Notes under the pieces: model-generated
Told to the model about the DNA's origin: nothing
Seen by the model: only the letters and a program-made list of their open reading frames with translations
The model's database searches: none
From: an uncultured Candidatus Melainabacteria bacterium
GTDB lineage: Bacteria > Cyanobacteriota > Vampirovibrionia > Gastranaerophilales > Gastranaerophilaceae
Assembly (NCBI GenBank): GCA_950096985.1
Contig: CATNBA010000016.1
Span: 1-35,186, forward strand
DNA length: 35,186 nucleotides
Reading direction: 5' to 3'
In this document: positions 1,050 to 21,542 of the stretch, one piece after another
Numbering within the stretch: position 1 is the first letter of the stretch
Layout of the letters: each line of letters starts with the position of its first letter
Position numbers and translations under genes: made by a program

Positions 1050-1667
1050 ATGGTTTTAGAATATAAAAAAGCTAAAGAAAATTTGCTGGCTAATCTGGAT
1101 TCGGATAGTCAGCAGTTTTTCGTAAAAAAAGGTTGTATTTTAGAAACGGCATATTGCTGTCTTTTGAATGATAATTTAGAAGATGCAAAAAAAAACTTTT
1201 CTTTAATAAAGAATAATGATATTCGTGCAGATTGGGCATTGTTTATGATTTCTTTGATTGAAGACAATGTTAAAGAATATCCAACATATTTTCAGCTTAG
1301 GAATTTTTTGGAAATAGATTTGAATATTTTAATACATTATTATAAAGGTGACTATGTTGAAAAAATTATCCGTTATTGCGATTTTATGTTCACTATAAAC
1401 CCTGAAGTGTATAAGTTTGTTGGGCGTGTTCTTTATAATAATAATCTTGAATGCCAAGCTCTCTTTTTTCTGGAAAAAGCCAAAAGTTATTTCTGGAATG
1501 ATCCTGAACTTCATTACTTACTTGGCTATATCTATTTTAATAAAGGCGATTTGGATAATGCCCGCAAAGCTGCTGAGGATTGTCTGCGAATTCTGCCCAA
1601 ATATTTTCCGGCACTTGAACTTATGAAGAAAGTCGTATATAATAAAAACATTAAGGAGGAATTATGA
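1050..1667 (+). CDS. TPR-like protein, unknown role
   Basis: A 205-aa protein without a signal peptide or membrane segment. The C-terminal half holds TPR-like helical pairs: residues about 120-150 (VGRVLYNNNLECQALFFLEKAKSYF) and about 153-187 (LHYLLGYIYFNKGDLDNARKAAEDCLRILP). The N-terminal half is also helical, with a weak repeat around residue 30. It starts 5 nt after the preceding TPR gene, and its TGA overlaps the ATG of pseudopilin 1 (ATGA at 1664-1667), so translation of the pilin is probably coupled to it. It could be an accessory protein for the pilin, but no family is recognised beyond TPR. Confidence 0.8.
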   Translation: MVLEYKKAKENLLANLDSDSQQFFVKKGCILETAYCCLLNDNLEDAKKNFSLIKNNDIRADWALFMISLIEDNVKEYPTYFQLRNFLEIDLNILIHYYKGDYVEKIIRYCDFMFTINPEVYKFVGRVLYNNNLECQALFFLEKAKSYFWNDPELHYLLGYIYFNKGDLDNARKAAEDCLRILPKYFPALELMKKVVYNKNIKEEL

Positions 1668-2454
1668 AAAATTTTAGCTTTAATTTCGGGGGGGGGGCAC
1701 TCTCAGCTTAACTCCTTTACGTTTTGGTTTTACATTAGCAGAAGTGTTAATCACTCTTGGTATTATTGGTGTAGTTGCAGCATTAACAATGCCCTCAATT
1801 ATTGAAAAACACAGAAAACATGTAGTGGTAACCAGAGCAAAACAAAACTATGTGATTTTAAATAATGCTATAGAACGTGCTAAAGCTGATTATGGTATGG
1901 ATATTTCCAACTGGGAGTGGCTTGACAATGCCAGTAACAAAGAAAAAAGCGTTTATTTTGCCGAAAAATATATGCTCCCTTATCTCAATACCGTTGCATA
2001 TTCAGGCTATAAACCCATGGATCAGGTCATAAATTTAGAGGGATATGAAGGTGATTATGCCAAAATTAATACCAGTTCCGGTGTGTCATTTGTATTAAAT
2101 AATGGAGCTCTTGTATATCTGTTGGTAGGATTTGTAAATAACGCCGAAGGTGAAAGTGGTAAAAATTATAACAGAGTTACTATAGTATATGATATTGATG
2201 GTGCTAAAGGTTTTAATTTATATGGAAAAGATATATTTAGAGTAGAACTTGGCGGTCTTGACGGGTGGCATTCGCAAAGTATGATAAGCCGAAATCGTTT
2301 TTTACCTTATCATTATGACAGTTCAAAAAAATGTGAGGAATATTTGTCATCTTCATTTGTTGGACAGCACGGCTGTAATGGTGTCACAAAATATGCTTGT
2401 CTTGCATATCTTATGTGTAACGGCTGGCAGGTAGACGATAAATACCCTTGGTAG
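1664..2454 (+). CDS. Pseudopilin 1, reading frame broken at a G10 tract
   Basis: A type IV pilin/type II secretion pseudopilin-like gene. The start is fixed by the ATGA overlap with the gene before and by AAGGAGGA just upstream. Eight codons later a run of ten G (1688-1697) puts the frame out, and the ATG frame stops at 1709. With 11 (or 8) G it reads on through ...PLRFG|FTLAEVLITLGIIGVVAALTMPS to the stop at 2454, giving about 263 aa. The prepilin peptidase site is G|F with Glu at +5, followed by the hydrophobic assembly helix. The C-terminal part has the family motif DIDGAKGFNLYGKDIF and several Cys. The pilin frame has no usable start of its own before a GTG inside the helix. As written the gene is OFF: phase variation, slippage decoding or a sequence error are possible. 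Confidence 0.75.
1688..1697 (+). repeat. G10 homopolymer (pseudopilin 1)
   Basis: Ten consecutive G in the context TC-G10-CA, 24 nt after the ATG. One nucleotide more would open the pilin frame. Outside the three pilin tracts, the longest G run I see in the window is five. Confidence 0.95.
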
Positions 2455-12236: not shown

Positions 12237-12907
12237 ATGAGAGATTTAAATTTTAAAAATACCTTCTGGGGAGGGGATAATTCATTAGCCTTTACTCTTG
12301 CTGAGGTCTTGATTACTTTAGGAATTATTGGTGTTGTTGCAGCAATGACTTGCCAACACTAATTCAAAGTCATAAAAAGAGTGAGTATTCAACGAGATTA
12401 AAGCGTTTTTATAGTACAATGCAGCAAGCAATTACACTTTCTGAACATCAAACAAATACAATGGTTGAAGATTGGTCTTATCCTTGGCAAAATGTTGATT
12501 CTGTTGAGAAATTTTGGAATACATATTTTAATCCGTATTTTAAATCTGTTGTTAAAACATCTAAAACCCAATACCAAAATTATATTTATACAGTATATTT
12601 TAATGATGGTTCTAGTGTAAGTATCAGATGTGGCGGAGCTGTTGATTTTATGTATGATATTAATTCTATAGATAAAGGTCCAAATGTTCGAGGTAAAGAT
12701 CAACATCAATTTATTATGAGAATGAGTTCAGGTAACTTTACTCCTTATGACTGGACTGGTGACATCCCGACTTTTTATCCTGATGCAACAACAAATTTAA
12801 CAGATAGGAACAATCTTTTAAAATTATGTAAAAAAGGCTCTTTTTGTACTCAGCTTTTATTTATAGACGGATGGGAATTTAAAGATGACTATCCGCAACG
12901 CCTGTAA
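12237..12907 (+). pseudogene. Pseudopilin 4, single-nucleotide frameshift
   Basis: A fourth pilin-like gene of the same family. From the ATG it reads in frame through an interrupted G tract (GGGGAGGGG, 12270-12278) into NSLA|FTLAEVLITLGIIGVVAAMT, then stops at TAA 12360-12362. The remaining coding sequence continues one frame over from about 12350 (LPTLIQSHKK...). One nucleotide is missing in ACTTGCC where the other copies imply ACNTGCC. Repaired, it would be about 223 aa. The C-terminal part keeps KGPNVRGKD, a worn version of the family motif, and paired Cys near the end. Promoter and ribosome site are intact, so the loss is recent or the base is a sequence error. The A in the tract would stop homopolymer slippage there. 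Confidence 0.75.
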
Positions 12908-16980: not shown

Positions 16981-17756
16981 TTAATTGTCTATTTTTCCTC
17001 CTATTTGATAGTCGGTAAATTCCAGTTTGTTTTTGCCTGAAAGTATGTTTCGAAGACTGGAATATCCTATCGCATTCCAAGGTTCAGGTTCAAGTTTTCG
17101 TAATGCAACTACAGCCCCAAAATTATCTTCACCATAACGATTTGGACCTTTAATACCATTAACATCAAATCTTATATATCCGCATCTGTAGTTGGTGTAG
17201 GAAACTTTTATGTTATTTCCGTTTTCATCTTTTAAACATCGTCCATATTGATCAGTTTTACAAGAGTTAACTAGTAATGAACAGTCTGTATTACCGTTTA
17301 TTTGCGAAATTCTTAATACTGCTCCATTTGTTAATATAATTGCAGGACCAGAATTGTTTGAACCATAAAATGTATCACTGTCATTAGCTTGAGGAACAGC
17401 GTATCTTGTATTATAATAGAACTGAGAACACCCCTGTTGGCTGGCAGTTTCACAAAGTTTAGCATCTTTAAAATATTTCACAAACTGTCTTGCGGTTTGA
17501 ATGGATGTATTATTCTGGTCAAATAATGCTGTATTATTACCAATACTACCAAGGTCGTTTTGTGCAAGAATAAGAGCGTTTGCTATCGTTGAATAAGTTT
17601 TTTTAGCCTGTGCAATTAATTGCATTTGTTTGGATTTGTTAATAATAGATGGCATAGTAAGTGCCGCAACAACCCCGATAATCCCTAAAGTGATAAGAAC
17701 TTCTGCTAAAGTGAAAGCTCGGGGGGGGGGCAATTCAAAGCATTAAATTTTTTCAT
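16981..17756 (-). CDS. Pseudopilin 2, reading frame broken at a C10 tract
   Basis: A pilin-like gene antisense to its neighbours between infB and rbfA. The ATG at 17756 has a GAGGAG ribosome site, and the gene opens MKKFNALNC. Then ten C on the coding strand put the frame out and the ATG frame stops at a TAG in the signal-peptide region. With 11 or 8 C it reads PPPRA|FTLAEVLITLGIIGVVAALTMPS to 16981, about 258 aa. A TTG at 17733 opens the pilin frame but has no ribosome site. The C-terminal half holds FDVNGIKGPNRYGEDNF and three or more Cys pairs. The residue before the cleavage site is Ala, not Gly. As in pseudopilins 1 and 3, one nucleotide is missing. Confidence 0.75.
17721..17730. repeat. 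G10/C10 homopolymer (pseudopilin 2)
   Basis: Ten G on the plus strand (ten C in the coding strand of this minus-strand gene), again in the plus-strand context TC-G10-CA. It lies at the same place relative to the start as in pseudopilins 1 and 3 but in the opposite orientation to the gene. Confidence 0.95.
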
Positions 17757-20775: not shown

Positions 20776-21542
20776 ATGAAAATTTTTAAAAATTGTGTTT
20801 TCGGGGGGGGGGCACTTCTGTAGCTTTTACCCTTTCAGAAGTATTGATAACTTTAGGTATTATTGGTGTTATAGCTGCATTGACAATGCCGGCTTTGATT
20901 TCAAATCATAGAAAAAAAGTTTACGAAACTCAGTTTAAAGTTGCTCATTCGCTTGTGTCTCAAGCAGTTGATCAATTGGCAGAAGAAAAGTTTGACATCA
21001 ACATGTTTTACTGCGGTACTACGAGAAGAGATGCGACAGAAAATGCGTTTATAAAAGATTTTGCTAAATATTTTCAAGTCGTAAAAAGTGATTATAGTAA
21101 TTTGACATATCTTTTGACAAGATTAGGTTATCCAAAGGCCAATTTTAATCAATCAGGACCTGGTTGGAATAATTTTAACCCTGATGCTCATAATAATGGT
21201 GCAATATTTTTGAATAATGGTATGATGATTGCATCAAGCGGCTGTTGGTGGAGATCGATTTATGTGGATTTTATTGTCGATACAAATGGTGTAAAAGGTC
21301 CTAATAAATTTGGATATGATGTCTTTTATTTTCAAATAGGAAAGGATAACAGATTATATCCGTCATCCGGAAACTATGATTTGCAATCAAACACAAATGC
21401 AACAATGGAAAAATGCTGTAATTTTAAACAGGCAAATACTTGTTCTATACCTATGGATACTGGTGTATCATGTGCTTTGTATGCGGTTCAAAATATTTCA
21501 CCACACGATACCGGAAAAGGTTACTGGGAAAGTTTGCCTTAG
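20776..21542 (+). CDS. Pseudopilin 3, reading frame broken at a G10 tract
   Basis: A third intact-looking family member apart from the tract. The ATG at 20776 follows AAAGGAGA by 5 nt and encodes MKIFKNCVF before ten G; the ATG frame then stops at TAG 20821. With 11 or 8 G it reads GGGGTSVA|FTLSEVLITLGIIGVIAALTMPALI to 21542, about 255 aa. A TTG at 20793 in the pilin frame has no ribosome site. The C-terminal half carries VDTNGVKGPNKFGYDVFYF and several Cys (EKCCNFKQANTC). It lies just after the HicB-like gene with no obvious promoter of its own, and its stop overlaps the convergent four-winged-helix regulator by 4 nt. Confidence 0.75.
20803..20812 (+). repeat. G10 homopolymer (pseudopilin 3)
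   Basis: Ten G in the context TC-G10-CA, 27 nt after the ATG at 20776. The same length and phase error as in pseudopilins 1 and 2. Confidence 0.95.

Follow-up and report, generated by a model that had tools for sequence, protein, structure and literature searches.

The poly-G contingency loci of Campylobacter and Neisseria resemble the elements described here in that the tracts lie inside surface-protein genes and expression is switched by reading frame. Poly-G tract lengths in those genera vary more than the G10 seen here, and we know of no conserved flank or strict replication orientation described for them. In Bifidobacterium breve, pili are switched by replication slippage in a G-tract (PMC9187656), and that sortase-pilus switch shares with our loci an intragenic G10 or G11 near the 5′ end, a mostly out-of-frame state, a gut commensal host and, as proposed below, a turn to ON by one-base replication slippage. 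However, B. breve has two such loci per genome, in sortase pilus genes, with no replication-strand locking or conserved flank reported (PMC9187656), whereas the genomes studied here carry tens to ~150 copies, in pseudopilin genes of both orientations and locked to the replication strand. The GnT hotspot is similar in that leading-strand position and neighbouring bases govern how mutable a G-run is: T changes to G after a G-run, with T:A to G:C rates raised >1000-fold on the leading strand in a flank-dependent manner (PMC12344412). There, a substitution occurs at the T after a short G-run, whereas here a G10 is maintained and a one-base length switch is proposed. Strand-specific G-runs are also known from antigenic variation loci (PMC3547852, PMC3585125). 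The gonococcal pilE G-quadruplex and the Borrelia vls G-runs share with our elements a strand- or orientation-dependent G-rich DNA associated with pilin or surface-antigen variation, but they are tied to recombination with silent cassettes, whereas the genes here have starts of their own, with the frame decided by the tract.

The DNA analysed (the window, 35,186 nucleotides) is contig 16 of a 48-contig, 1.65 Mb assembly, referred to below as G000. The tract-bearing genomes compared with it come from the same genus of gut bacteria (Candidatus Gastranaerophilales). It contains nine G8 matches against 0.13 expected, which none of 100 shuffles reached. Three G10 tracts (1688–1697, 17721–17730 and 20803–20812) all lie on the plus strand as TC-G10-CA. 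The first and third are in plus-strand pilins, while pilin 2 is on the minus strand and reads C10. With TC before and CA after, the tract of pilin 2 occupies 17719–17732, exactly as the initial annotation had described it. In all three genes the tract codes for the part of the leader ahead of the FTLAEVLITLGIIG prepilin motif. Pseudopilin 2 carries this motif at its N-terminus and has weak matches to TIGR02532 and GspG; pilins 2 and 3 were scanned without most of the leader, giving TIGR02532 scores just under the cut-off. The ATGs of the three genes (1664, 17756 and 20776) are each preceded by a Shine-Dalgarno sequence. Translation from these ATGs stops after 15–16 codons at N=10, and therefore all three genes are OFF as assembled. 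Among the lengths tested (9–12), only N=11 reads through, although N=8 also works for pilin 3. The initial annotation had read the tracts as Gly in pilins 1 and 3 and as Pro in pilin 2, but all three genes are out of frame at ten. In-frame TTG codons directly precede two of the tracts, with no Shine-Dalgarno site seen there. A fourth pilin in the window (12237–12905, plus strand) has a leader with an interrupted G-run, TTC-TGGGGAGGGGA, and is in frame at that point; a frameshift follows shortly after the prepilin motif (VAAMT, then stop), and the gene is probably a pseudogene.

Table 1. Pseudopilin genes and G10 element copies in the window.
Feature	Position	Strand	Description
Element copy 1	1686..1710	+	TC-G10-CACTCTCAGCTTA
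Pseudopilin 1	1664..2454	+	Co-directional with replication; 15 codons at G10, 263 aa at G11; TIGR02532 above cut-off
Element copy 2	17719..17744	+	TC-G10-CAATTCAAAGC in tract orientation; in a minus-strand pilin leader; flank common to forward pilins and unrelated genes
Pseudopilin 2	16981..17756	-	Head-on to replication; ATG 17756; 16 codons at C10, 258 aa at C11
Element copy 3	20801..20826	+	TC-G10-CACTTCTGTAGCTT
Pseudopilin 3	20776..21542	+	Co-directional with replication; 15 codons at G10, 255 aa at G11; weak TIGR02532 match

The same frame offset recurs well beyond the window. Pilins were classified by a motif together with a heuristic for Shine-Dalgarno sites, and N=2 mod 3 is required by 92 of the 103 leaders examined in four genomes, in both gene orientations. 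Ten of the 103 are in frame, nine of them in G000, against an expectation of one third (p ~2e-8 with leaders taken as independent, which they are not fully). In the other three genomes one of 66 sampled pilins is in frame, and ON states are mostly unobserved. Four leaders with a requirement for N=1 mod 3 carry G11, which leaves them OFF as well, and lengths of 10, 11 or 12 put some leaders in frame. As in contingency loci, a homopolymer inside the coding region, long enough to slip, sets the frame, and the gene behind it is intact and under selection in the species pair G004/G042. In this pair, the only one for which it was calculated, dN/dS of tract-bearing orthologous pilins is 0.05–0.28; most tractless pilins have similar values, which argues that the tract-bearing ones are in use at times. 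Gene-calling programs will probably assign wrong starts to G10 pilins or label them as pseudogenes.

Many paralogous, mostly OFF pilins with a G-rich element near the start could also be a store of silent copies on which the G-run initiates recombination, as proposed for the gonococcal pilE G-quadruplex, and the strand-specific G-runs of antigenic variation loci offer a precedent (PMC3547852, PMC3585125). We think this very doubtful. By the same heuristic, none of the sampled pilin leaders lacks an ATG or a Shine-Dalgarno-like site of its own. The tract is part of the coding leader, whose frame it determines, and tracts also occur in unrelated single genes.

Which strand carries the tract follows replication. 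G000 has 49 runs of at least eight Gs, 38 of them exactly G10, with 25 on the forward and 24 on the reverse strand. About 40 are in pilin leaders, 27 as coding-strand G and 13 as coding-strand C. Twelve contigs hold several tracts, always on one strand per contig, and all 24 adjacent pairs agree. Judged from sampled stretches around the tracts, tract strand matches GC skew in 22 of 25 contigs; in the three exceptions the sampled coding sequence is mostly or all on the opposite strand. Coding strand is unrelated to tract strand (50,645 vs. 51,137 aa pooled), which excludes gene strand as the explanation of orientation. In the near-complete genome G007, none of 77 tracts is opposite to its neighbourhood, and the strand changes just twice, between 176 and 349 kb on contig C1 and between 581 and 638 kb on C2. 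The third-codon-position GC skew of this genome, corrected for gene strand and computed without using the tracts, flips sign between 305 kb and 315 kb on C1 and between 595 and 600 kb on C2, and no sampled stretch that holds a tract disagrees with it. Because tract strand and corrected skew flip in the same gaps, the G-run is on the leading strand, whichever way the gene points. From the skew we infer that the strand-change points are the origin and the terminus; dnaA lies elsewhere in both G007 and G043. The latter, also near-complete (of these two genomes, skew was computed for G007), has 51 tracts in a G007-like strand pattern with two exceptions, C1:700371 (minus) and C3:67 (plus). Both have T instead of C before the run, and they are local inversions, misassemblies or true exceptions. 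The suggestion that the tract is a small invertible element found no support here: it has no sizeable flanking inverted repeats, and opposite copies number 0/77 in G007 and 2/51 in G043, with none inside any single contig of G000.

The tract is embedded in a recurrent flank. In tract orientation this reads TC-G10-CA, followed by a pyrimidine patch and by GC (often AGCT) ~7–15 nt downstream; the base that follows the run is C in almost all cases. Forward pilins served to train a profile, which gives reverse pilins a score of 3.36 (shuffles that keep CA, -0.48, s.d. 0.72) and 17 unrelated loci a score of 1.51 (shuffles, -1.41, s.d. 0.83). The observed values were reached by 0 of 2000 shuffles, and the mirror flank scores ~-8. 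GC is found at +7 to +15 in 16 of 20 reverse pilins (1.9 expected) and in 11 of 17 unrelated loci (2.8 expected). No hairpin was common to five element sequences that were folded, one of which folds better than most of its shuffles. In the mRNA the flank lies downstream of the tract in forward genes and upstream of it in reverse genes, and because the side differs with gene orientation, selection on protein or RNA explains it poorly. Selection on a Gly-rich peptide is excluded, as reverse genes code for Pro and keep the flank in tract orientation. The initial annotation had argued for selection on the DNA tract rather than on the peptide, and this stands: homopolymer, length and flanks are kept in forward, reverse and unrelated genes. 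It had also named a genome-wide survey, with random flanks and no orientation bias as the outcome that would count against it; the survey returned the opposite, a conserved flank and a conserved orientation.

The uniform frame offset, the conserved length of ten and the purifying selection on the genes would also be expected of recoding, in which expression from genes that remain at N=10 relies on -1 ribosomal frameshifting or transcriptional slippage on the homopolymer. We regard this as distinctly improbable. The messages to be recoded differ, with G10 in forward and C10 in reverse genes and the flank on opposite sides, and the element is fixed to the replication strand. Moreover, tracts of 10, 11 or 12 leave some leaders in frame, and eleven is found in some whose frame calls for ten.

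Run length is nearly fixed. Along 380 kb of independently defined G007 leading strand, G-runs fall from 21 of G5 and three of G6 to none of G7 or G8, and then number one of G9, 28 of G10 and one of G11. C-runs of at least seven are absent from this same sequence. G000 has a comparable length gap and somewhat more G11. Between G004 and G042 (~91% identical), most compared tracts are G10 in both genomes, the exceptions being one pair at 10/11, one at 11/10 that adjoins an assembly gap, and a tract that is interrupted but no different in length. The 10/11 pair, in orthologous pilins, corresponds to OFF vs. ON. Overall, tract lengths in this pair are steadier than expected of a fast random walk.

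Mutational asymmetry by itself might produce such a pattern, if G-runs grew or survived on the leading strand only, as in the GnT hotspot, and slippage settled at ten with no function. GnT hotspots are strongly leading-strand specific and flank-dependent (PMC12344412), and in our data G-runs of 3–5 also show a mild leading-strand bias, with C nearly always following the tract. Even so we regard this explanation as unlikely: lengths 7 and 8 are absent, C-runs of at least seven are missing altogether rather than merely rarer, and the flank at +4 to +15 is common to unrelated genes. Selection is also needed to explain why the tracts share one OFF frame and are concentrated in pilin leaders. Loss of mismatch repair is excluded, MutS1 being present in the window genome and in nearly all of the genus.

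All tract lengths were read from assemblies, and Illumina reads can fail at or misread G-tracts; in B. breve, tract lengths did not match those in the reference genome (PMC9187656). Some G000 contigs (C8, C18, C22 and C24) end at or near tracts, and N gaps occur in the G004 loci L101–L120, which suggests read dropout or length heterogeneity. If the true length were eleven, all genes would be ON and the G10 state an artefact of assembly. We find this hardly credible. Separate assemblies agree, lengths of 9, 11 and 12 occur too, and neither the replication orientation nor the flank can arise by artefact. Tracts outside pilins add to this: about nine coding tracts there keep the reading frame with ten bases, and about five do so with eleven. 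By Pfam, the non-pilin tract genes include an AAA ATPase and a PRTase-CE protein; others, judged by eye, are glycogen-synthase-like, acyltransferase-like and a membrane glycosyltransferase. The glycosyltransferase gene has C10 in both G042 and G019 (the G019 protein is 70% identical to the G004 query), and its G004 orthologue has an interrupted tract that is ten bases long, as in G042. Truncation of a true G11 during assembly is therefore unlikely. The non-pilin genes in frame at ten and the glycosyltransferase comparison support the reading that ten is the real length, set at the DNA level. A further G10 was seen in or near another glycosyltransferase-family gene, at L300:2620 in G020.

Presence in unrelated genes, together with fixed length, fixed flanks and locked orientation, could also fit a tiny mobile or templated sequence placed on single-stranded lagging template by an IS200/IS605-type transposase, a REP/RAYT system or a reverse-transcribed patch, its orientation recording the direction of replication at insertion. 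Targeting of the lagging-strand template is described for single-strand transposition (PMC6006769). However, the Y1/HUH transposase family is absent from G000, G004, G042, G014, G016 and G001, although a distant or unmodelled enzyme is possible. No larger element, target duplication or stable hairpin was seen, and insertion itself leaves the shared OFF frame unaccounted for. We rate such an origin as very improbable overall, and an origin from a Y1 transposase or REP is disfavoured, as the family is missing from most tract-rich genomes. Recent insertion, the other possibility raised by the initial annotation, is not borne out either: distant homologues of the glycosyltransferase have ordinary codons at the tract site, with zero net length change. 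What remains of that annotation is the DNA element itself; the invertible element falls away, and it had missed both the frame offset and the strand that follows replication.

A strict form of the motif was found in 88 stretches from a collection of 84,980 species. Named records among the matches listed are Candidatus Gastranaerophilales, uncultured melainabacterium, ‘Fusobacterium sp. CAG:439’ and a few uncultured-bacterium MAGs. A match on a viral contig proved to be unrelated Gly-rich coding sequence. Members of the order searched outside the genus have 0 to 6 runs of at least nine. Across 33 genomes of the genus (1.6–2.2 Mb), candidate pilins number ~9 to ~200 per genome. G012, G023 and G021 are nearly tract-free. 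This differs from KOPS and Chi, which are likewise G-rich and leading-strand-biased whatever the gene strand, but are spread through the genome and not gathered in the leaders of one gene family; the G10 elements are absent or rare in these three genomes of the same genus. G021 has ~131 pilins and only four tracts. Several of its leaders (L159–L187) carry G-rich, hairpin-like inserts that end in CGGG(A/T)GAGGGCTAA at the same position in the gene; strand agreement of these inserts is not clear in the short loci available. Long low-complexity or repeat-like leader inserts, e.g. cttcacccttcactcttcact and gctacgcacgtagccctgt, were seen at L077–L087 (G008, G016, G040, G019, G041, G022 and G003). 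It seems that inserts of many sorts are tolerated in the pilin leaders of this genus.

Taken as a whole, we lean towards a slipped-strand contingency switch, built as a DNA element locked to the replication strand and mostly parked in the OFF state. G10 within TC-G10-CA-(pyrimidines)-GC lies on the leading strand, inside a pseudopilin leader that is expected to be cleaved, reading as coding G10 (Gly) in a co-directional gene and as coding C10 (Pro) in a head-on gene. While the tract rests at ten, start codon and pilin body are in different frames and the gene would be OFF. Gain of one G on the leading strand would give eleven and turn either kind of gene ON, and loss of one would turn it OFF again. 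At the DNA level, forward and reverse genes would undergo an identical change when the leading strand gains one base, and both would come into frame. Locking to the replication strand points to DNA synthesis, not to RNA or protein, and one-base slippage during replication would presumably do the switching, with strand and flank setting the slippage rate and the resting length. Most pilins of a cell would then be silent and few expressed at any time, and the benefit may be diversification of the pilus. The presence of MutS1, the steadiness of G10 between G004 and G042, the scarcity of ON alleles and the in-frame TTG codons ahead of two tracts weigh against this reading. Conceivably, though we give it only a modest chance, TC-G10-CA...GC (on the leading strand, the lagging template) is the target site of a dedicated trans-acting factor or template, which resets the tract to ten and adds or removes one G; pilin switching would then be directed instead of random, and fork-coupled.

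To our knowledge, the novelty lies in the replication-strand locking and the conserved flank, slipped-strand switches of pili being known already. Judging from what is generally known, from a literature search of limited extent and from a survey of tract orientation within this one genus, we know of no earlier strand-locked contingency repeat. If the proposed switch is correct, this would be the first family of contingency loci locked to the replication strand rather than to the gene, with a conserved flank and a near-fixed length. With as many as ~150 copies in a genome, in genes of either orientation, it would also serve as a natural test bed for strand-specific slippage and for flank effects on its rate and direction. 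For the organism itself, it would explain how a gut relative of the cyanobacteria with a genome of just 1.6–2.2 Mb keeps tens to ~200 pilins, most of them silent.
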